Shown here: piece after piece, positions 5,801-39,970 of the stretch | Position numbering within the stretch: position 1 is the first letter of the stretch | How the letters are laid out: each line of letters opens with the position of its first letter | Origin: a virus | Strand: one strand, 5' to 3' | IMG/VR virus record: IMGVR_UViG_3300027773_000183 | Span: 1 to 46,226 of that record | Length of the DNA: 46,226 nt | Translations under genes and position numbers: made by a program | The notes under the pieces: generated by a model | What the model was told of the DNA's origin: nothing | Database searches by the model: none | The model's input: the letters and a program-made list of their open reading frames with translations, nothing else

Positions 5801-6011
5801 CCCGGCGCGCTGCCTCAAATGTGGCGCGTCGGCGGTACTGTGGTCGCCATCGGGCCATCCCTACTGCCGCCAGCATGGCGTCTGTGTGCGCTGTCGCGAG
5901 TTTCCGCCGCGCTGGGTACAGGACCCTGCTGGTTGCTATCTCTGCCTCTTGCCACCAGGACGGCGCATAGGGGCAAAGCAAGAGGTGTTGATACCCGATA
6001 TCGCCTTATGA
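5775..6011 (+). CDS. small multi-CxxC zinc protein
   Basis: 78 aa, GTG start with GAGGAGGCGAC upstream, overlapping the previous gene by 26 bases. It contains CLKC, CRQHGVCVRC and CYLC, enough ligands for two zinc ions in treble-clef or ribbon form. Such small zinc proteins are common in early regions of phages of G+C-rich hosts. Function unknown. Confidence 0.65.
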   Translation: MSTQESPYDPARCLKCGASAVLWSPSGHPYCRQHGVCVRCREFPPRWVQDPAGCYLCLLPPGRRIGAKQEVLIPDIAL

Positions 6012-6022
6012 GGAGGAAAACA

Positions 6023-6514
6023 TTGGATCTGTCAAAGTATCGCCTCATCATCTTCGACATGAACGGCACGCTCACCAACACCCCGTTCATCGATAAGCAG
6101 CCCCTGCACATGCTGCCAGGCCGCGTCAAGCGATGCATGGAATTGCGCGAGCAGGGTATTGCCTGCGCAATTGCCACCAATCAAGGCGGCGTCGCCTGGG
6201 GCTTTACGACGCCAGAAGCCGCGACCGAGGAAGTGCAGTGCGTCGCTGGTGCCATTGGCGCATCGCTCTTTGAAGTCGCCTTCGGCTATCCGAAACATCC
6301 GAAGGTCGATCCGCAATGGAGTACGCCGGAGCTGCTCTCCATGCGCAAGCCTGCGCCGGGTATGCTCATCTCCATTATGAGCAAACTTGGCGTGACGCAC
6401 GATGCAACGCTCATGGTTGGCGATCTGGAGGAGGATGAGCAGGCAGCGAAAAATGCGGCGGTTGATTTCGTCTGGGCAAAAGATTTCTTTGAAGAAGATG
6501 AACTTCCATTCTGA
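6023..6514 (+). CDS. HAD-superfamily phosphatase, class IIIA-like
   Basis: 163 aa. Motif I is FDMNGTLT (nucleophile D12), motif II ATNQGGV (T52), motif III K109 in RKPAPGM, motif IV VGDLEEDEQAA (D134, D138). The short length without a large cap, the TNQGG string and KPxPGM resemble polynucleotide 3'-phosphatase or HisB-N type enzymes, which remove phosphates from DNA ends or small sugars. Odd: the second Asp of the DxD motif, the usual general acid, is Asn (N14). TTG 6023 is preferred because AGGAGG lies 8 bases upstream; ATG 6008 would put that site inside the gene. Last gene of the early operon. DNA-end repair with the annealing protein is a possible role. Confidence 0.75.
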   Translation: MDLSKYRLIIFDMNGTLTNTPFIDKQPLHMLPGRVKRCMELREQGIACAIATNQGGVAWGFTTPEAATEEVQCVAGAIGASLFEVAFGYPKHPKVDPQWSTPELLSMRKPAPGMLISIMSKLGVTHDATLMVGDLEEDEQAAKNAAVDFVWAKDFFEEDELPF

Positions 6515-8861: not shown

Positions 8862-9821
8862 ATGAGCGAATCCGCACCTATGCTCTTCTCTGCCAACACA
8901 CCAAAAATGACACTCGATCAATGCATCACGGCCTGGCTTGATGAGAAGGCCGGGCTTTCCGACAGCATCAAGACAAAATATGCCTATCAGGACATCCTCA
9001 CGGATTTTCGGGCCTATCTGCGGTCCGCCAATCACGATCTGGATAGCCCAGCCTCCATCGTCGCACCGCTGGCTCAGGGCTGGGCCGGTTTCCCCCGCCG
9101 CGGCGACAGGGTCTCGCCGGCGACATTCAACCAGCGCCGCTCTATTCTCTCCTCTTTCTATGAGTACGCTATCGCCAATGAGGTGCTAACGGTCAACCCG
9201 ATCCGGCGTTTCAAGCCGCGCAAGCTGAGCCACCCTCATAAAGCCCATTCCCTGACACCGGCCTCCATCAAGCGCGGCCTCTCCTTGATTGATCGCAGCA
9301 CGCTTTCTGGTAAGCGCGACTACGCCCTGCTTTCGCTGGCGCTCTCGACCGGCCGACGTGTTTCGGAGCTGGCCGGGTTGCGCTATGGCCATATCCAGCG
9401 ACAGGGAAATCGTTCGGTGATCCAGTGGGTGCGCTGCAAGGGCAATAAGCAGATGATTGATGTTATCGAGGAGAAAACAACAAAGGCCCTCTATGATTAT
9501 CTCTACGCTGCTTACGGTGCGCAGCTCGGCACACTGGCAAATGATGCACCGATCTGGCTCTCGGAAAGCAACCATAATGCTGGAGAGCCGATCAGCGCCC
9601 GAACGCTGCAGCGCATCTGCGAGCAGTATCTGGGTACGTCGAAGTTTCACACCACGCGCCATACCTTTGCGGTGGCGCTCAATCACAAACATGCCACCCT
9701 GACCCAGATCGGCAAGCTCCTGGGTCATAGCAACCTGAAAACAACATCAGAGTATATGGAAGAGTTGTTAGGTAATGAGAATCCCTATGCGCACGACCTG
9801 GAAGATGAATTTGGGATATAA
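8862..9821 (+). CDS. tyrosine recombinase / phage integrase
   Basis: 319 aa. An N-terminal SAM-like core-binding domain (about 15-125) is followed by the catalytic domain with all expected residues: R166 in STGRRVSEL, K193 in RCKGNK, H263 and R266 in FHTTRHTFA, H289 in LGHSN, and Tyr298 in TTSEYM. It lacks the extra arm-type N-terminal domain of lambda-type integrases, so it is closer to XerC/D-like enzymes. Expected role: site-specific integration and excision of the phage, or mobility of the local cassette. No excisionase is adjacent, although an HTH protein at 42672 could serve. Start ATG follows AGGTGAAGA. Confidence 0.9.
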   Translation: MSESAPMLFSANTPKMTLDQCITAWLDEKAGLSDSIKTKYAYQDILTDFRAYLRSANHDLDSPASIVAPLAQGWAGFPRRGDRVSPATFNQRRSILSSFYEYAIANEVLTVNPIRRFKPRKLSHPHKAHSLTPASIKRGLSLIDRSTLSGKRDYALLSLALSTGRRVSELAGLRYGHIQRQGNRSVIQWVRCKGNKQMIDVIEEKTTKALYDYLYAAYGAQLGTLANDAPIWLSESNHNAGEPISARTLQRICEQYLGTSKFHTTRHTFAVALNHKHATLTQIGKLLGHSNLKTTSEYMEELLGNENPYAHDLEDEFGI

Positions 9822-29804: not shown

Positions 29805-31256
29805 CTAGTTGACGTAGACGCCTTGCGCTTTCGCCATGAAGCCGGGGCCGCGCACGGCCAGCACCTGGTCGCCGATCAGCGCAAGTTGCTGTGTGCGCGC
29901 ATTGACGAGCGCGAGCGGCACCGTACTCATCTCGTTGACGACGGGGACGCACAGAATGTCCGGGTCGCGAGGCAAGAGCCAGATGTCCTGTCCGGTATGG
30001 CCGCTCGGATTGGTGCGCGGAATGCTGTAGCCGTCGGGCGCGGCATTGCTGCCGCTCGTTGCCACCGTCGCGCTGTAGAGCGCCTGGCCGCTCGGATTCG
30101 TCGCAAACGGGTTGACTGGCAGACCGGTGTCGTTCCAGCTCGTCACTGCCGCGTCGTTGTTGTCGAGCGCGGAGATCACTGCGTAAAGCGTTTCCGAGCC
30201 GCTTGCCCCGCCCGCCGCCGTGCGATAGAGGCGATATTCGAGGATATCGCGCGTATTGCCGTCGGCATCAGTGATCGTCGGCGTTGTCCAGGAAACGGTC
30301 ACATTGTGGCCTGCTGTCGGCGTCACCGTACCCTCAGCGCTGGCAACGGTCACGCCCATGTCGCTGATTGCTTCCATGATGTAGCCGTACTGGCTGTTGG
30401 CGAGCGAAGAGCCGGTTGTTCCAGCGTCAGTCACGGTCAAATTGCCCATTGTCCCCAGCGAGGTGATGAACGAGCTTTCAATGAACGGCACGCCGCGATA
30501 GGTGTCGACTTCCAGGCCGCCATCGATGTAGTTTTTGTTGTCGGTGACCGGCGCACCAAGCTGGCCACGGTCATCACGGGGATAGATCGTCGCCTTGCCC
30601 ATCCAACGTTCGTACTGCACAAAAAGGCGGTTGACGGCGCTGTGCAGCTCAGGCGAGAGGACGAAGGCGAAATTGGTTCCGCCCAGGCTTTGACCATAGA
30701 CCTTTTTCACGCTGTCATACATCGAATCGAGCATGGCAATCGTTGGCGCGCCGTTGACGGTGATTTTGTTGGCGGCGGACATGAGCAGATCAACGCCGTC
30801 CCACTGCGGACGCCACGTGTTGGCCGTGGCGCCAGCACTGCCATAGTAGTTGATCGCCTCTTCCCACCAGCAGTAGGACTTGCTGGCGGCATCGAGCTCC
30901 AACTGCAATAGGTCGCCGTTGACGCGAGCAACCTGGATCGAGAATTTCGCTAGATCAAGCTGGTTTTGCCAGTGCTTGATCGCGTAGCCAATCTGGCTGT
31001 AGCTGGAGCTGCTGGCTGCGACCGAGCCGGTGCCGCTGGTTGGCGGCGCTTCCACGACGGCGCGCGTCTTCGGGAAATTCGTGCGCTTGTTGAAGAGGTA
31101 TTGCGGCGTATTCCAGGTGCGCCGCCCGAAGAGCATGCGCGTAGCGGTGAAGCGACGGCGGCTCTCAAAGAGCGAGCGGTCGATCACCGGCTGATAGAGG
31201 TTTTGCGCGCCCGTCGTCTGCGAGAGCGTCTCCTGCAACTGTCTCAAAGTTGCCAT
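29805..31256 (-). CDS. major capsid protein with inserted Ig/FN3-like domain
   Basis: 483 aa. Residues 1-300 and 390-483 look like an HK97-type capsid subunit: N-terminal arm, long helix (LDLAKFSIQVARVNGDLLQL), an A-domain-like region (FVLSPELHSAVNRLFVQYER) and the C-terminal part (DIWLLPRDPDILCVPVVNEM). Residues about 303-385 (GHNVTVSWTTPTITDADGNT; LEYRLYRTAAGGASGSETLY) read as a fibronectin-III or Ig-like domain inserted within the fold. The ATG follows AAAGGAACACCGCACC. It is the shell protein; the insertion probably projects from the capsid. Confidence 0.8.
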   Translation of the reverse strand: MATLRQLQETLSQTTGAQNLYQPVIDRSLFESRRRFTATRMLFGRRTWNTPQYLFNKRTNFPKTRAVVEAPPTSGTGSVAASSSSYSQIGYAIKHWQNQLDLAKFSIQVARVNGDLLQLELDAASKSYCWWEEAINYYGSAGATANTWRPQWDGVDLLMSAANKITVNGAPTIAMLDSMYDSVKKVYGQSLGGTNFAFVLSPELHSAVNRLFVQYERWMGKATIYPRDDRGQLGAPVTDNKNYIDGGLEVDTYRGVPFIESSFITSLGTMGNLTVTDAGTTGSSLANSQYGYIMEAISDMGVTVASAEGTVTPTAGHNVTVSWTTPTITDADGNTRDILEYRLYRTAAGGASGSETLYAVISALDNNDAAVTSWNDTGLPVNPFATNPSGQALYSATVATSGSNAAPDGYSIPRTNPSGHTGQDIWLLPRDPDILCVPVVNEMSTVPLALVNARTQQLALIGDQVLAVRGPGFMAKAQGVYVN

Positions 31257-31312: not shown

Positions 31313-31741
31313 TTAAATTTGCTCGTGCGGGCCGACGAGCTGGTCGACAGAGCGGCCCATTGCGTTTGCCTCGCGCTCAATCAGCGACATCGCCATAAAT
31401 GGCGCGAGTTCGTGCAGGGCCAGTTCCGGGTCAACGTCCTGGGGCCAGGGAACGCGGCGATTTGCCAGCGCGGCCCAGTTCTTTGGCGAGAGCGTGCCTT
31501 GCAAGTAGTCGCCTTCCATGTACAGTTGCTCTGGCAAAAGCTGACTTTCCTGCGCGCCACTGCCCAGCACCTGCGTCTGGCGCTGCGACTCGCCGCTCTG
31601 GCCTTCAGTGAGCGCGGCAATCTTGCGGTTTTGCTCTTCAATGAGTGCCTGCATTTCAGCAAGCCGCTCTTCAGCGGTTTTCGGCGGAGTGATGTTGAAG
31701 CCTTTCGCTTTCAAGGCTTCCATCATTTCCTTCTCGGTCAT
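31313..31741 (-). CDS. nested scaffold protein, internal in-frame start
   Basis: An ATG at 31741 preceded by GGAAAGGACAG inside the protease gene would give a 142-residue protein starting MTEKEMMEALKAKGFNITPP with a helical, Glu/Gln-rich middle. A nested scaffold made from the protease gene is known from lambda (C/Nu3). This is an inference from the ribosome-binding site and sequence character. Confidence 0.5.
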   Translation of the reverse strand: MTEKEMMEALKAKGFNITPPKTAEERLAEMQALIEEQNRKIAALTEGQSGESQRQTQVLGSGAQESQLLPEQLYMEGDYLQGTLSPKNWAALANRRVPWPQDVDPELALHELAPFMAMSLIEREANAMGRSVDQLVGPHEQI

Positions 31742-33079
31742 GATTTTCTGTCCTTTCCGGCGAGCTGCTTCCTCGCCATCGTCTGATTGATCTGCCGGAT
31801 CTTCGTCGTCGGCAATGCCGTCGCCGTCCTGATCACTATCGAGCGGCAGGCCGAGGGCCTCGTTGTATGCGCCTTCACAGTCCATGCCGAGCTGCTTAGC
31901 ACTCTCATCGTGCGCAGCGGCAAGCTTGGTAGCATGCTTTTTCGCGATAGCGCGGCCTTCTTCTGAGAGGCCAGCGTCCCGGATGAGCGATTCGGATTTG
32001 TCGCCATGCACAGCTTTGATCGTCTCATCGAGGACGCCGGCGAGATGGTCATGTACACGCTGGTGCGCTGCACGATCAGCAGTCATCGCCTCAGTCATGC
32101 TTCCGGCAATGACATGCAAATAGAGCGGAATAGCCATAGGGGGGTCTTGCTCCTTTTGTGGGGGTAGACTTTCAAACAAAAAGGCGTCGTGGTAGTTGAG
32201 CCGACCGTCAGATTCGTATAGCACCTGGGGAATACGGGCGATATCGGCCAGGCCGGGGCGAGTCGTGAGATCAATGCCCAGCCAGTCGATTTCAACGCCT
32301 TCCTGTGGCACGACCAGCGGCAAATCGTACCCCTTGTCATAGCGCAACTCGACGCCCAGCACGCGCATAGAGCCGGATTTGAGGTAGCCGCCTTCCGCCA
32401 GGCCCAGCATGTCCCACGATACCCGTGTATCCGCCAGGTCGATGTAGGCCCAGAACTTGCTCCCTTCCTGCCAGACCTTCACTGGCGCGCCAACCAACTC
32501 CGTGTTGATGTTGCCATTCGCTGCCTCGTGACTCACAAATGTGGTTGGCGGTAGTGCCTGGCGGTCTGCGAGCTTGCGCTGAGCAGCAGCAAAAATGGCG
32601 TCACATGTGGCTTTCGGATAGATGCGCCCGTTCAGTGAGCGCGCATTGTATTCCAGCCAGCAGATCGGCAACGTCGCAATCTTTTTGCGCGGCTTCGTCA
32701 CACTGCTGACAACAGTGGCAGCGGACTCCTCTTTTTTGCCGTCCGACTTCTCGCCAAAATGCGCCTGTCGTCTGGCGATACGCTCGCCAATGATCTTCTG
32801 CTCAGCATCGTTGTACTGTGAGCGATTGGAATCATCTCCCCAGCGAGAAGCAGCATTATCGGCATGCGATTTGTCCGGCATGGGATAGCGATAGTTCACC
32901 GGGTCGCCCCACTCGCTATCAGGCACCGTTGACCACTCCCCTGGCTTCGTGATACTGCCGCCGTCTTTGATGCCAATGTGGTATTTCTTTGAGCGGGCCT
33001 GCTGCGCAGCTTTCGCATCTGGGCTAGCGGCTTCCATTTGTAGGCGCAAGTTGCGTGCCTCTTCAGCAGTTAGAGTCAT
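31313..33079 (-). CDS. prohead protease fused to scaffold
   Basis: 588 aa from the ATG overlapping the portal stop (ATGA). Residues 30-100 resemble the DUF6582-type domain (EWGDPVNYRYPMPDKSHADN). Residues about 140-300 are a phage prohead protease: SLNGRIYPKATCDAIF, H184 in FVSHEAANG, and S235/S237 in YLKSGSMRVLG are the candidate catalytic residues. Residues 414-431 (DSDQDGDGIADDEDPADQ) look like a calcium-binding DxDxDG repeat. The end (447-588) is a coiled-coil, scaffold-like region with an internal start. It would assemble and mature the capsid. Confidence 0.8.
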   Translation of the reverse strand: MTLTAEEARNLRLQMEAASPDAKAAQQARSKKYHIGIKDGGSITKPGEWSTVPDSEWGDPVNYRYPMPDKSHADNAASRWGDDSNRSQYNDAEQKIIGERIARRQAHFGEKSDGKKEESAATVVSSVTKPRKKIATLPICWLEYNARSLNGRIYPKATCDAIFAAAQRKLADRQALPPTTFVSHEAANGNINTELVGAPVKVWQEGSKFWAYIDLADTRVSWDMLGLAEGGYLKSGSMRVLGVELRYDKGYDLPLVVPQEGVEIDWLGIDLTTRPGLADIARIPQVLYESDGRLNYHDAFLFESLPPQKEQDPPMAIPLYLHVIAGSMTEAMTADRAAHQRVHDHLAGVLDETIKAVHGDKSESLIRDAGLSEEGRAIAKKHATKLAAAHDESAKQLGMDCEGAYNEALGLPLDSDQDGDGIADDEDPADQSDDGEEAARRKGQKIMTEKEMMEALKAKGFNITPPKTAEERLAEMQALIEEQNRKIAALTEGQSGESQRQTQVLGSGAQESQLLPEQLYMEGDYLQGTLSPKNWAALANRRVPWPQDVDPELALHELAPFMAMSLIEREANAMGRSVDQLVGPHEQI

Positions 33080-36036
33080 ACGACGTACACCTCCTTGCCA
33101 TGGATGCACCCCGGATGTGCGGGGAAATCAGGCAAATCGACGGCCTCTTCTAAGCTGTAGTCGTTGCCAGCATAGTCTGCACAGAAATCGCTACTCGAGG
33201 AATCAGGCACGACGCGCACACGCACGCCGTTGAGGTCGCTTGCGCTGTCTGGATCAGTCGCCTTGTCCAAGAGTTCGACGATCGCCTCGTCCGTGCCGTC
33301 GTTATCCCCGCTGCCAGCGGTGTCGCCCGCGATCTGTGGCGCTTTCCATTCGACAAATGTTTTGACGCCGCCAGCAACACCTGCCGCCAGCGCCGCCACA
33401 TTGATGAGTCCGCCGACCAGGCCTTCATCCAGCGGCACGGCCTCGCCTGATTCGGTGCGCAATTGCTCTACCAGCCGCGCAATCGTATCGCGGTAGGTTG
33501 CGCTGATGCTCTCTACCTGTGGAGTTGCCCAGTGCAGCGCCTGGTGATAGACCGCCTGATAGTCGAGTGCCTTATCGCGCTTAGCGGTCGTCATCGCGCG
33601 CCGGTACGCCTGTACTTTTGCGTTGGCGTAGGCGGTGGCCAGCAACTCGGTCAACTGCTCTTGCTCGGCAGGCGTGAAGCTGTAGGCAACAAGCGGCTCA
33701 GCACCTTCATCAACTTGTGTGGCGGCGCGGCTGGCGGAAGCTTGCCAGAAAGATTGCAGCGTAGCGGCTACGCTTGCTTTTGTTGTTGGCTGTTGGACGC
33801 TCTCCTGACTTTCTCCAGACTCTGGTGGGGTATCGCTGCCAAGTCTAAACGGCATGCGCGTCTCGCCAACACACAGCCAGACGGTATCGAGATCAAGCGG
33901 AAGCTGAGGCACGGCTTTGACCGGCATGGGCGCGCCACTATCGACGTAAGCCAGCGTGATATGTGGCGTATAGCCGTGATTTTGTGCCACGAAATAGCCG
34001 CAGGCGAGGATGCGCGAAATCAGCTTCGTGCGGAACTCGGTCAGCCCTGGAACATCCACCAACGCAATGATTGGATCTTTGTCGTCTGAGTCAGCAGAGG
34101 CCGCGAAACGTCCAATGCCACCAACCTGTCCATGTAGTGGCTTTGCTTCATGCGCGGTAAAGCCAGCAATGACGGCTTTGATCTTCTCCGGAGACGTGTG
34201 CGGTCTAAGCAGATCGTCCTCTGGCTCCTCTTCCATGTCGCCGAGGTATGCCAGCGTGATATGGAGATCGCTAGCAGGTTCACCGCCGGGAATAGCGAGT
34301 TGTGCAGCAGTTTCCACGTCCAGCAGAAACGCCAGCATCATGCCGGTATGAGCGTCTTTCGGTACACTGGCCTCTTGAGTGTTGCCAACTTGTTTACCGC
34401 TCGCTTTCGCTGTCTTCCGGTTGCCCAGAACCGGTGCAGCGCCTTTTCGGCTTTTCGTAGTCGCCTTCGGTTGAGGTGGCTCGGCATCTGTATTCTCATC
34501 GTCGTTTGCTCCGTCGTCTGTTGAATTTGGGGCCTTGCCCTGTTGCGCGTTTTGCAACGCTGCCGGGACTGGCGCAGGTGGCTCTTTGGCCTGCTTCGCT
34601 TTCGTAGCGGCCAGATCGGCGTTGGCCTGCGCGGTCGCAATCGCCGCCTGAGCTGTCTGGCGCTGCTCGTCCTCGAGGTCCTTGAAGCGCGCAATCGGCG
34701 TCACATCCTTTGTCGTGACAATGACCGCGATAGCGCCTGAACCGTCTGGATAGGCTTCTCTGCCCATCTCCTGCCTGACCTCATCGATGAGCAACGAACC
34801 GTTCCTGATGCGCGTATCCGCCACGTCTGCCAGCGCCTTATCATCCCGGAAGTCCGCGTACCGGGTGGATACGTAATAATCCTCTCCGAAAAACGGATAA
34901 ATCAATCTCCAGTTGAATTTCTCAAAAAAGCGATGTCGGCGCGGGTCGCAGGCGATGTACTGGAGGATTTTACGCTGGCCGTCGCTCATGTCGGTGAGTC
35001 GGTTGCCGCTCTCTGCGATACAGGCGATAGACGGCGGGACGTGAAAGGCAGAAAGCACGATCGTCAACATACGATCCAGGCCCTTGTCAAAATCGATGTC
35101 TACTGGTCCACCGCTGCCAAGTGTGCCGATATCGGCATTGCCCCACAGCGTTGGTGGCACGTGCGCATTCTTCTCGCCCAGGAAGTTTTGTTTGGCCCAG
35201 GTCGTGAAGCGATCGGCCTCATCCTTATCGCTCAGACCTTTGAAATAGTAGTCGAATTTCGCGCCTTTTTGAAAGAACCTCGTCATCCAGTTCACCATCT
35301 TCTTATCCAGCAAAATCGCGTCCTGGATGCGTTCGAGCGGTGAAAACGGATCGACTTTGGCGCGTTTGTGCGGATTCCACCAGCGAACAATGGTTTTCGG
35401 GTCCAAATAATTGATCTCGCTGGTAATGGAAAGCTGCTGTGTGTAACGCAACACACGACCATAGCGGTCATGCTCGCTATCCATTGTCAGGCAGTCAATC
35501 GGATAGAGGCGGTAGGGTGCTTTATCGCGCAAGGTAAATTCGGTAAATGCCTCGCCAAAGATCATGTCGTCGGTGATCTGATCGTAGGTGTACTGGTTGA
35601 AATCCCAGTCGTCATTCACGCGCAGGATGAAGTTTTCAATCTTCTTGCGCTGCGATTTGTCTGGCTTCGGTACGCGCGGCTCAATGGTAAAGCCGCCTGA
35701 GATGATGTAGAGTGCGATGGTATCGATACAGTTGGACGCCCAGGGGTTGGCAAGGAAAACTTGCAAGAGCGTCTCTTTGCGTTCACGGGCCGTCATGCCG
35801 AACCAACTTGGCTGGCCATTGATACCGTAGCGGTCCTCGTCCCAGGCGAGGCTAACAGCTTGCGGATTTTTGCCGCTTCCACGCGGGCTGCCTGCTGCTT
35901 CGGTCACGATATGCGAGTCGAACACCCAACTCGTGCGATGCTCAGGTTCAGGCGTTGGAAAGGGGATGATCTGAGAAGAGGACACGGCGACAGAAGGCCC
36001 ATAGAGCAGCCATTTTGCCCATTGCCTCAGTCCCAT
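33076..36036 (-). CDS. portal protein fused to a 2H phosphoesterase and minor-head domain
   Basis: 986 aa, about twice a normal portal. Residues about 60-480 are the portal (GMTARERKETLLQVFLANPW, stem and crown, FHVPPSIACIAES). After an acidic linker (500-560), residues about 562-735 have HITLAYLG (592-599) and HITLAYVD (692-699), the paired HxTxxY motifs of 2H phosphoesterases (LigT/2'-5' RNA ligase type), which cut 2'-5' or cyclic phosphodiester bonds. Residues 760-986 are helical, ending PAHPGCIHGK as in SPP1 gp7/Mu F-type head proteins. Portal role is secure; phosphoesterase by motif. Start follows GGAGAACACA. Confidence 0.85.
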   Translation of the reverse strand: MGLRQWAKWLLYGPSVAVSSSQIIPFPTPEPEHRTSWVFDSHIVTEAAGSPRGSGKNPQAVSLAWDEDRYGINGQPSWFGMTARERKETLLQVFLANPWASNCIDTIALYIISGGFTIEPRVPKPDKSQRKKIENFILRVNDDWDFNQYTYDQITDDMIFGEAFTEFTLRDKAPYRLYPIDCLTMDSEHDRYGRVLRYTQQLSITSEINYLDPKTIVRWWNPHKRAKVDPFSPLERIQDAILLDKKMVNWMTRFFQKGAKFDYYFKGLSDKDEADRFTTWAKQNFLGEKNAHVPPTLWGNADIGTLGSGGPVDIDFDKGLDRMLTIVLSAFHVPPSIACIAESGNRLTDMSDGQRKILQYIACDPRRHRFFEKFNWRLIYPFFGEDYYVSTRYADFRDDKALADVADTRIRNGSLLIDEVRQEMGREAYPDGSGAIAVIVTTKDVTPIARFKDLEDEQRQTAQAAIATAQANADLAATKAKQAKEPPAPVPAALQNAQQGKAPNSTDDGANDDENTDAEPPQPKATTKSRKGAAPVLGNRKTAKASGKQVGNTQEASVPKDAHTGMMLAFLLDVETAAQLAIPGGEPASDLHITLAYLGDMEEEPEDDLLRPHTSPEKIKAVIAGFTAHEAKPLHGQVGGIGRFAASADSDDKDPIIALVDVPGLTEFRTKLISRILACGYFVAQNHGYTPHITLAYVDSGAPMPVKAVPQLPLDLDTVWLCVGETRMPFRLGSDTPPESGESQESVQQPTTKASVAATLQSFWQASASRAATQVDEGAEPLVAYSFTPAEQEQLTELLATAYANAKVQAYRRAMTTAKRDKALDYQAVYHQALHWATPQVESISATYRDTIARLVEQLRTESGEAVPLDEGLVGGLINVAALAAGVAGGVKTFVEWKAPQIAGDTAGSGDNDGTDEAIVELLDKATDPDSASDLNGVRVRVVPDSSSSDFCADYAGNDYSLEEAVDLPDFPAHPGCIHGKEVYVV

Positions 36037-36045
36037 TGTGTTCTC

Positions 36046-37422
36046 CTAGTTGTACCAGTCCAGAATCTGTGTCGCCTCTTCCCAGGTGGAAGAATTGACG
36101 ATTTCGGTCTCTTCCGGCGTCGCAATCAGCACGCCGCCGCCCTTTTCCTCTTCCAGCATCAGTTCAGTGAGCGCCCATACCAGCGCGTCTAGCCGGTCTG
36201 GCGATCTCTCGCCGGGTATCCAGTTACATTGCTGATCCTCCATATCTGGGAATGTTCCCAGATGATGCACCAACGAGCGTTCGTACAGGCTTGATATCGG
36301 CTCGGCACGCAATTGCTTACCGCGCGTCGCACGAACCGATTCGTAGGAGATATGTCGATCGATGTTGCGAATAATCGCCTCGATCATGTCTCCGCCGTTG
36401 TTGACCTCGCCAACAATGCGGTCAGCCGAAAACAGGTAGTACGCGGTGATCGCCGCGCTGGCCCACTCATTCGGCGAGCCGTGTCTACTGTGGTCGGCCA
36501 GTACATAGCCGTGTCCATCGATGCCCAGGCCCACGACCACGATACCGGCCTCTGCTGAGTCTTCCGTATCGGTTGCTGGCGGGTCGAGCGCCACCACGAT
36601 ACGCTTCAAATCGGGATGCTTGCGTACTCGCGTCGCTTCAATCCAGGCCCGTTTCCACAGCGCACCTTCCACATCATCGATGACCTGGCCGAGCAACTCC
36701 TGGCGGCCCAGGCGTGTGCCTTCGTACTTCTTGATGATCTGGCGAAAGAACGCCGCCGCCAGGTTCGCTTTGTTCTCGTAGCTCGTGCCGCGAGTGACCA
36801 GCGTGTCCGGGTCGGCAATGATCTCCTTGATGGCCTTCGTCGGCCTGGGCGTCGTTGTGGCCACGCACTGTGGCTTTGCCCCCAGGCGCAGCCCAAACAT
36901 CAACTGATCCCAGGTGCCGTCGTACCGCCAGCTTGCCCGCTCGTCGGCCCAGGCTTTCGTGTGCTGTGGACCCCTGAGTTGGTCAGGCTCGTCGCCACTG
37001 TACGTCGTCGCCTGCGCCCCGTTGGGCCAGATAAGCCTGCGTTTTGATGGCTGATACTTCGGCATGAACCAGGGCGCGCTACACGCCAGTATCCCGGATT
37101 CGCCTTCCACCATCACATCGCGCACATCAGCGGCAGTGCGACCGACGAGAGCAAAGCGCCCTTTCGGGTCTTCCTCTGCCCACTGATTGATGGATTCCGC
37201 GCCCGTGCGCGTCTTGCCGAAACCGCGTCCGGCCAGTATGAGCCAGGTCGTCCAGGAGCCTGTCGGCATGAGCTGATTGTCACGCGCCCAGGCTGCCCAT
37301 CTGTATTGGAGGCGAAGCGCCTCATCATCCGTTAAGGTGCTAATGCACTCAAGCTTCTCTCGTTTGGAGAGCCGCGAGAATGCCCGATACTTGCGAAACT
37401 CAGCGTGCGTCAGCGTCGTCAT
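36046..37422 (-). CDS. terL: terminase large subunit
   Basis: 458 aa. ATPase domain with Walker A AGRGFGKT (64-71) and a Walker B-like AWADERASW (about 156-164). The nuclease domain shows VVALDPPATDTEDSAEAGIV, VGEVNNGGDMIEAI and DRLDALVWAL with the expected acidic residues. It packages DNA into the prohead using ATP and cuts it. Starts 23 bases before the terS stop (overlap), and is followed by the portal after 9 bases. The subgroup looks like the gene-transfer-agent/headful-type large subunits. Confidence 0.92.
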   Translation of the reverse strand: MTTLTHAEFRKYRAFSRLSKREKLECISTLTDDEALRLQYRWAAWARDNQLMPTGSWTTWLILAGRGFGKTRTGAESINQWAEEDPKGRFALVGRTAADVRDVMVEGESGILACSAPWFMPKYQPSKRRLIWPNGAQATTYSGDEPDQLRGPQHTKAWADERASWRYDGTWDQLMFGLRLGAKPQCVATTTPRPTKAIKEIIADPDTLVTRGTSYENKANLAAAFFRQIIKKYEGTRLGRQELLGQVIDDVEGALWKRAWIEATRVRKHPDLKRIVVALDPPATDTEDSAEAGIVVVGLGIDGHGYVLADHSRHGSPNEWASAAITAYYLFSADRIVGEVNNGGDMIEAIIRNIDRHISYESVRATRGKQLRAEPISSLYERSLVHHLGTFPDMEDQQCNWIPGERSPDRLDALVWALTELMLEEEKGGGVLIATPEETEIVNSSTWEEATQILDWYN

Positions 37423-37984
37423 CGTCTGGCAAAGCCCCCAGCTTCTGGAGCAGGCGCTCTTTTGCGCCTTCGATATCGATACTGCCGCTGTGATCGATAT
37501 GCTTTTGCTCTTTGTACTTCTCTGGCATGCGCGCCTTGAGCAAGGTAATCAAGACGGATGGGCTGTACTTTTTCACCTTCACCATCTTGCCGCGCACCAT
37601 GATCGGCTTGCCCTGCTTATCCAGCTTCGGTTTGCCGTCCTCATCGAAGAGCGGTTCGTACTCATAGACAATCTGGCCCATCGAGAGCGCAGGCTCCTCA
37701 ACGCCTGCTGCCTGCTCATAGGCCATCATCTCCACTGCCTCGTTCGCTTCCTCTTCCGTGTCTGGCAGTTGCGCGGCAAACGCCTCGTCATGGTCGCGCC
37801 AGTATTTGAAAGTGGAGCGATTGATTTTCGCGACTTCGCACGCCGCTTTGATAATGCCGATTTCCCGATACGCCTTCAAAAACAGCTTTTGTTTTTTTGC
37901 TCGCTGCGCAGGCGAGAGCGGAATCGGCGGATTATGCGCGTAATAGATGGTGGAGTCGATGGAGTCTTTCTTCTCGTCGCTCAT
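37400..37984 (-). CDS. terS: terminase small subunit
   Basis: 194 aa from the ATG after GGGAGGTGGG; the frame is open farther upstream but crosses two terminator hairpins. The helix-turn-helix GIIKAACEVAKINRSTFKYW (about 42-61) recognises packaging sites. The middle (DEDGKPKLDKQGKPIMVRGK) and the oligomerisation end ARMPEKYKEQKHIDHSG are typical of this family (terS with KYKEQKxID). First gene of the late structural operon. Confidence 0.85.
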   Translation of the reverse strand: MSDEKKDSIDSTIYYAHNPPIPLSPAQRAKKQKLFLKAYREIGIIKAACEVAKINRSTFKYWRDHDEAFAAQLPDTEEEANEAVEMMAYEQAAGVEEPALSMGQIVYEYEPLFDEDGKPKLDKQGKPIMVRGKMVKVKKYSPSVLITLLKARMPEKYKEQKHIDHSGSIDIEGAKERLLQKLGALPDDDDADAR

Positions 37985-38009
37985 CCCACCTCCCTTGGGC
38001 CAAAACCAC

Positions 38010-38038
38010 AAAAAGCCGGATGCCCGAAGACACCCGGC
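38010..38038 (-). terminator. second leader terminator before terS
   Basis: Minus RNA hairpin of 10 bp with a UUCG loop (38038-38015) followed by UUUUU (38014-38010). It shares sequence with the hairpin at 39121-39152. Confidence 0.7.
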
Positions 38039-38056
38039 GATGGCGCGCAGTGTAAT

Positions 38057-38087
38057 AAAAAAAATCGCTGGATTTTCGTCCAGCGAT
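38057..38087 (-). terminator. first leader terminator before terS
   Basis: Minus RNA ATCGCTGGA-cgaaaa-TCCAGCGAT (38087-38064) followed by eight U (38064-38057). About 15 bases downstream of the predicted start of transcription. Confidence 0.85.
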
Positions 38088-38107
38088 GGCGTGCAACTTC
38101 TGTGATG

Positions 38108-38136
38108 AGTATAGCACAAAATGAACTTTTGTGCTA
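38108..38136 (-). promoter_or_regulatory. late promoter of the structural operon with overlapping palindrome
   Basis: Extended -10 TGC-TATACT (38116-38108). A 10-bp inverted repeat, TAGCACAAAA/TTTTGTGCTA (38112-38121 and 38127-38136, 5-base spacer), covers the spacer and -35 region (TAGCAC). It suggests a repressor or activator site at the late promoter. Confidence 0.6.
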
Positions 38137-39613: not shown

Positions 39614-39897
39614 AACAACAAGCCTGGTTGAGAGATCAACCAGGCTTGTTGTTTGAAGCTGCTACTCGGCTCGTTTACCACTCCCCAGCTCGTCTGCGGA
39701 AGAAAAGCAGCTTCTCCCACGTCGCAGCAGACGAACACACCAACCGACGCCTGTTGGCCGGGTCCAGGCAGCATTTTTGCTTTTCCCTGCTCAGTCCACC
39801 GCTTACTTTCCGTACCCCACTGGGATACAAAAGCCAGTGCAACCAAGTCATGGCTGGCCGCTCTCTTTGCCAGCAAACTGTTTAATGGGGATACCAG
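39614..39897 (-). ncRNA. candidate structured RNA downstream of the tRNA
   Basis: About 280 bases between the tRNA and a strong hairpin, with no credible gene. Successive helices on either strand: GCTGGC/GCCAGC (39853-58, 39869-74); CACTGG/CCAGTG (39818-23, 39834-39); CCAAC/GTTGG (39740-44, 39753-57), overlapping GCCTG/CAGGC (39749-53, 39765-69) as a possible pseudoknot; TCGTCTGC/GCAGACGA (39690-97, 39727-34) with inner GAAG/CTTC (39699-702, 39711-14); and an 18-bp stem AACAACAAGCCTGGTTGA (39614-31, 39636-53) with a 4-base loop. It would be transcribed from the tRNA promoter. Large structured RNAs near tRNAs are known in phages; the family here is not recognised. Confidence 0.45.
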
Positions 39898-39970
39898 TAG
39901 CGGGAGTGCGACTCGAACGCACGACCTCGGGATTATAAGACCCGCGAGCTGCCAACTGCTCCATCCCGCG
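39898..39970 (-). tRNA. tRNA with anticodon UAU, initiator-like body
   Basis: 73-base cloverleaf, 5' end at 39970. Acceptor CGCGGGA/TCCCGC, with position 1-72 a C-U mismatch; D stem GAGC/GCTC with AGTTGGCA loop; anticodon stem CGGGT/TCCCG with loop CTTATAA (anticodon UAU, reads AUA, Ile); 5-base variable loop; T stem GTGCG/CGCAC with TTCGAGT. A73; the 3' CCA is not encoded. The unpaired 1-72, A11-U24 pair and G-rich anticodon stem, and the 5' half CGCGGG..TGGAGCAG, are initiator (fMet) features. There is a U31-U39 mismatch. Likely Ile by anticodon, with an initiator-type body. Confidence 0.85.

Follow-up and report, generated by a model that had tools for sequence, protein, structure and literature searches.

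The window, by which we mean the whole stretch of 46,226 nucleotides of viral DNA analyzed here, an IMG/VR contig, carries on its minus strand the genes for a small terminase subunit (37400..38119; phrog_4044, E 4.5e-21) and a large terminase subunit (36046..37422; PF03237 and PF17289), followed by an open frame of 986 residues (33076..36036) in which a portal, a linker, a 2H phosphoesterase and a C-terminal tail are joined. Downstream of this fusion gene lies an ORF of 598 aa (31313..33109, minus strand), probably a prohead protease with scaffold. The protease part was recognized by eye, a Pfam search gave no protease match, and the location of the ORF between the portal and the next large ORF is conserved in two relatives, L102 and L106. 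An ORF of 483 aa (29805..31256, minus strand) is probably the major capsid protein by synteny with the same two phages, and it had no family match in Pfam or PHROGs. A tape measure protein and an amidase/endolysin are also encoded. An integrase gene (8862-9821, plus strand; phrog_1, E 1e-29) points to a probably temperate phage. A tRNA-Ile gene with the anticodon TAT is located upstream of the terminase genes (39897-39970, minus strand). Far from the head genes, a HAD hydrolase is encoded at 5819-6514 on the plus strand, with a weak resemblance to the polynucleotide 3' phosphatase family PNK3P (21.0 bits against a cut-off of 22).

Architecture of the 986-residue protein

The reading frame runs from ATG to stop with no interruption by a stop codon or a frameshift. 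The portal domain occupies residues 128-425 (34762..35655, minus strand) and matches PF04860 with 70.7 bits against a cut-off of 39.1 (E 1.6e-19); portal families in PHROGs match the protein at 1e-26 to 3e-27, with phrog_12 at E 3e-27. A low-complexity linker apparent in the sequence (residues ~500-562; 34351..34539, minus strand) leads to the 2H phosphoesterase domain (residues ~563-735; 33832..34350, minus strand), which contains two HITLAY motifs. Motif 1 covers residues 592-597 (34246..34263, minus strand) with H592 and T594, and motif 2 covers residues 692-697 (33946..33963, minus strand) with H692 and T694. The two motifs, about 100 residues apart, are thus where a preliminary description of this DNA had reported them, and its reading of a portal and a 2H domain in one protein of 986 residues is borne out. 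The same co-linear portal-2H-tail protein is found in the independent phage L102, with 54% identity in the portal, 64% in the 2H domain and 40% in the tail, which excludes faulty assembly as the origin of the fusion. Taking the open frame, the Pfam and PHROGs matches and this relative together, we regard it as practically certain that both the domain and the fusion are real.

The C-terminal part (residues 749-986; 33079..33792, minus strand) had been described as a minor-head domain. It aligns in register with the MuF profile at a low level (hhalign E 0.017, probability 2.7%), and a Cys/His motif can be recognized by eye in its tail. The Pfam search of this part gave no match, including to PF04233 (MuF), the predicted model is of low confidence (pLDDT 57), and L102 holds its one detectable relative. 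In another phage, L104, a portal-2H-MuF protein is found in which each of the three domains scores above its Pfam cut-off. The in-register alignment and the Cys/His tail speak for the earlier assignment, whereas Pfam and a confident model do not back it; the part is possibly a degenerate MuF/minor-head domain, and a MuF origin is weakly suggested.

Family, fold and active site of the 2H domain

The 2'-5' RNA ligase-type 2H family PF13563 matches the whole protein at residues 587-706 with 34.2 bits against a cut-off of 27 (E 3e-8), and the score rises to 38.0 bits when the domain is searched in isolation. The LigT/ThpR family PF02834 matches the isolated domain with 25.0 bits (cut-off 23.3) and the whole protein with 19.4 bits, mainly through motif 1. 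In PHROGs, phrog_14859, annotated as RNA ligase, matches the 986-aa protein at 3e-23. Two H-h-T/S-h motifs at a spacing of 80-120 residues arose in 10 of 20,000 shuffles of the fusion protein. An AlphaFold model of residues 559-740 (182 residues; window 33817-34362), built from an alignment of 53 sequences, reached a pLDDT of 90.3 and a pTM of 0.86. The 2H identity claimed in the preliminary description, and the HMM search and structure prediction proposed there, thus gave a consistent result: a family match above cut-off, a confident 2H fold and two motifs paired within it.

Structural comparison with Foldseek places the domain closest to the LigT/CPDase enzymes. The best match in the PDB is drCPDase (5h7e), with an E-value of 2.6e-8 and a TM-score of 0.68 over nearly the whole length, followed by E. 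coli LigT, the LigT-like proteins of Thermus and Pyrococcus, and then rotavirus VP3, human Usb1 and AKAP18. Acb1 structures appear far below LigT/CPDase, near E 1e-3. A profile search of the PDB gave the same picture, with LigT-like proteins on top and Acb1 lower, and the two motifs of the window protein aligned to their two counterparts in the solved enzymes; a single-sequence search of the PDB found nothing real. Among viral predicted structures, the best matches are actinophage genes, several of them labelled RNA ligase. Membership in the Acb1 family was considered and rejected, as its profile PF23474 reached 13.5 bits where 27 are required, and LigT/CPDase is nearer by both profile and fold. 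The comparison with Acb1 drawn earlier therefore holds at the level of the superfamily and not at that of the closest relative.

Among 80 distinct domains with a mean pairwise identity of 33%, H592, T594 and H692 show no variation, and T694 occurs in 75 of them. Beyond the first three, no position is fully conserved in this divergent set. One of the IMG/VR search patterns contained the H-x-T of motif 1, which may have biased the set at that motif; the second histidine was not part of the pattern. In 15 phage sequences gathered by tblastn with no motif in the query, H592, T594 and H692 (H34, T36 and H134 in domain numbering) are again invariant, together with G82 of the same numbering. Since this constancy covers the catalytic histidine of each motif and the threonine of motif 1, the active site looks functional, and the pattern of conservation is that expected of a working enzyme as opposed to a structural relic.

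Relatives and exchange of the domain between head proteins

With tblastn and a limit of E ≤ 1e-3, 237 phage records were retrieved; most belong to phages of Mycobacterium, Gordonia, Arthrobacter and Streptomyces, and in the records opened the 2H domain usually adjoins the portal. In most of the annotated actinophages examined it is a free-standing gene between the portal and capsid genes, and a free-standing gene behind the portal is found in DalanDe, Shrooms, Ottawa, GMA6, Cantare and Cane17. The domain is part of a gene annotated as head maturation protease in Stultus and Lilbeanie, and part of a protease-MuF gene in BabyGotBac and TurkishDelight. The 2H protein of Shrooms, gene 18 (L003:4836-5954, MF140427.1), was deposited as aldolase class I, and its relatives as RNA ligase; both names look misleading for 2H proteins. 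Relatives also occur in genomes of Streptomyces, Chloroflexi, Herpetosiphon and Calidithermus, and the relatives of the terminase are mixed.

When IMG/VR was scanned with one sequence as query, either the domain or the complete protein, no relatives were found; a four-sequence profile found 73 contigs. Among 53 full-length frames carrying the 2H domain, with partner Pfam matches counted at E ≤ 1e-3, Phage_portal is present in nine (window included), Phage_portal_3 in two, Peptidase_S78 in nine, the XkdF-type S78_2 in eight and MuF in three, in addition to capsid families. Same-frame fusions with portal, S78, S78_2 and MuF were confirmed record by record, and ART-PolyVal, GNAT and histidine phosphatase domains occur as additional parts of 2H chains. 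At L147:5881-9288, a single open frame joins the 2H domain to a domain of the major capsid family PF05065 (E 1.2e-27), and at L133:2548-6513 a frame of 1322 residues combines an ADP-ribosyltransferase (ART-PolyVal), a GNAT-like domain and 2H. Long head-region proteins with a histidine phosphatase and 2H are encoded at L126:3405-6005 and L146:3352-6954, and the L146 frame also includes an XkdF-type protease. At L168:4618-8346, 2H shares one frame with weak HAD and MuF matches and a RelA/SpoT-like stretch seen by eye, and in L008 a VIP2-like ART adjoins the 2H gene.

The relationship among 2H domains does not follow that among the portals. The 2H domain nearest to that of the window (L100, 69% identical) is joined to a portal in which no resemblance to that of the window is detectable, and another (L103, 54%) to a portal with no significant similarity. 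Conversely, phages whose portals are related carry different contents behind them: L102 (portal 54%, 2H 64%) carries an additional DUF305 domain (E 7.5e-37) in the stretch that separates its portal from its 2H (L102:2781-5996), L106 (portal 46%) has a 2H domain of 43% identity, and L020 (portal 37%) has no 2H. In L020 (2379-4816) the portal stops at a similar linker, and the next gene encodes a MuF-like tail, recognized by eye, and a HAD domain that resembles the Swiss-Army-Knife RNA-repair HADs (HAD_SAK_2, PF18143, E 1.6e-4, below cut-off). The same place in sister phages is thus occupied by DUF305 and 2H, by 2H alone, or by a separate HAD in the absence of 2H. A quick tree of 67 domains, with many weak forks and with partner labels from Pfam that leave about half of the rows unlabelled, requires at least seven partner changes for the labelled rows and four for the portal alone, and at least two changes are forced by well-supported branches. 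The 2H domain is a mobile passenger of phage heads that has been transferred repeatedly between unrelated head proteins, and one of its lineages has changed portals. The exchange of this lineage between unrelated portals provides a natural comparison set.

Possible function and relation to known systems

In known portals the C-terminal end faces the interior of the capsid, and the portal stays behind in the particle. Because this end points into the capsid, a 2H domain placed after it would be enclosed with the DNA in about 12 copies per head. Since the portal remains in the particle, a portal-fused 2H domain would leave it only if cut; it may be cut free at the flexible linker, with the prohead protease as the probable agent, and the putative protease of the 598-aa ORF could release passenger domains. 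The domain would then reach the cell together with the DNA, or else would act in the infected cell during head making. Members of the 2H superfamily attack bonds of several kinds. Possible targets of the domain described here are 2',3'-cyclic phosphate ends and the 2'-5'/3'-5' linkages in RNA or in nucleotide signals, and their cleavage would blunt an RNA-cleaving or nucleotide-signalling defense. Fold similarity tentatively favors RNA ends or 2'-5' oligonucleotides over cyclic dinucleotides as the predicted substrates. We read the domain as an apparently intact LigT/CPDase-like phosphoesterase that rides as a passenger on the portal; to the whole functional account, a head-borne 2H enzyme acting on RNA or nucleotide signals, we give a probability of about one half. 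Effector-type domains that share a chain or slot with 2H are ART and GNAT (L133), histidine phosphatase (L126, L146), a VIP2-like ART (L008) and HAD (L020). Virion proteomics for any member of the group was not found in the open literature.

A broader reading, which we offer tentatively and with clearly more doubt than belief, is that the C-terminal end of the portal may serve as a general cargo slot whose modules are exchanged between phages, cut free in the finished head and delivered in about 12 copies as a first anti-defense dose. The exchangeable modules would be 2H, DUF305 with 2H, or none with a HAD in the next gene.

The alternative that fares best, unlikely as we judge it, is that the domain would act as an RNA enzyme with no signal as target, either trimming or healing 2',3'-cyclic phosphate ends or working as a Usb1-type RNase on host or phage RNA. 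The presence of LigT, drCPDase and Usb1 among the structural neighbors agrees with it, as does the relationship of the L020 HAD behind the portal to RNA-repair HADs, but that HAD evidence is weak and comes from few records. No RtcB or ATP-grasp RNA ligase is encoded in the window, and RNA ligases are rare in the records of relatives, with RtcB in one and an ATP-grasp ligase over cut-off in one of 51 records, many of which are fragments; this argues against a phage-encoded ligation pathway and, within the account that we prefer, favors hydrolysis of RNA ends or 2'-5' oligonucleotides by a head-borne enzyme, with cyclic defense signals as a less close possibility by fold. The rarity also agrees with the remark of Iyer et al. 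(2017; PMC5512222, section 20) that 2H domains of this sort are not accompanied by RNA ligases.

Two further alternatives appear improbable to a similar extent. In one, the domain would be a delivered enzyme of the Acb1 type that destroys the cyclic oligonucleotides of CBASS or CRISPR systems, or 2'-5' oligoadenylates, as infection begins. The superfamily is shared with Acb1, rotavirus VP3 and coronavirus ns2, all of which appeared in the fold or profile searches, and a role of this kind has been proposed in PMC5512222 and PMC9503650. Its weak points are the low scores of Acb1 by both profile (13.5 against 27 bits) and structure, and the setting, as no defense context was found in the window. 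A PADLOC search gave no match for the fusion protein. In the other, the domain would serve head assembly, for example by clearing RNA from the prohead or, at a late stage of infection, signals from the cytoplasm, and then stay in the particle. This needs no delivery step and fits with the fusion of 2H to prohead proteases and a capsid protein, all late products; yet the sister portal of L020 lacks 2H, and the domain moves like an accessory, unlike a core part of assembly. That the domain decorates the portal as a structural or nucleic-acid-binding part devoid of catalysis, which the location in the head alone would permit, is very improbable given that the catalytic residues are the only invariant ones in 80 divergent domains. 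That the domain is a true 2'-5' RNA ligase, as the historical LigT name and the GenBank annotations have it, is hardly credible, since the closest solved structures include enzymes that their depositors named cyclic phosphodiesterases.

Head-carried enzymes can act before phage gene expression, when nucleotide-signalling and RNA-cleaving defenses must be stopped. An action on RNA or defense signals early in infection, as suggested in the preliminary description, is reasonable as a hypothesis and had been published before for this class (PMC5512222, PMC9503650); of the enzymes named in that description, Acb1 is not the closest comparison. No functional test of the class of 2H-head proteins, predicted in 2017, was found in the literature searched. 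Hundreds of cultured actinophages, with hosts including Mycobacterium smegmatis, Gordonia and Arthrobacter, carry a relative annotated as RNA ligase, so virion content, activity and defense targets are open to testing there.

With an enzyme domain and a head protein in one chain, the window protein fits the polyvalent type of head effector in its architecture. Iyer et al. described 2H domains fused to MuF or portal in phage polyvalent proteins and proposed RNase activity or degradation of defense nucleotides; PMC9503650 took 2H-head fusions as a hint that the enzymes are packaged and injected to counter SMODS and CRISPR signalling; and portal-MuF and VIP2-MuF fusions are known from Microbacterium phages (PMC7302621). 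The portal-2H kind is therefore already described, with the same joining in one chain and the same predicted carriage in the head and action on RNA or defense nucleotides. As far as the literature was searched, what is new is the set of further partners, namely the S78 and XkdF proteases and the major capsid protein, and the change of portals by one 2H lineage. The actinophage head genes annotated as RNA ligase (phrog_14859, phrog_2659; Shrooms gp18, DalanDe gp19, GMA6 gp12) belong to the same 2H family at ~30-40% identity and likewise lie near portal and capsid genes, whereas they are free-standing or on the protease and not in the portal. E. coli LigT/ThpR and Deinococcus drCPDase (5ldm, 5h7e) are the closest solved folds, with both catalytic motifs aligned, but they are cellular single-domain enzymes with 16-21% identity in the structural alignment. 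Acb1 (7t27, 9q2y) is also phage-encoded and has the 2H fold, but is a free protein and more distant by profile and fold. The 2',5'-phosphodiesterase of rotavirus VP3 likewise places 2H at the end of a virion protein, in this case a capping enzyme of an RNA virus with a distant sequence. MuF polymorphic toxins and VIP2-MuF fusions (PMC5576092, PMC7302621) resemble the window protein in carrying enzymes on minor head proteins; their enzymes are different, and the MuF part of the 986-aa protein is weakly supported.
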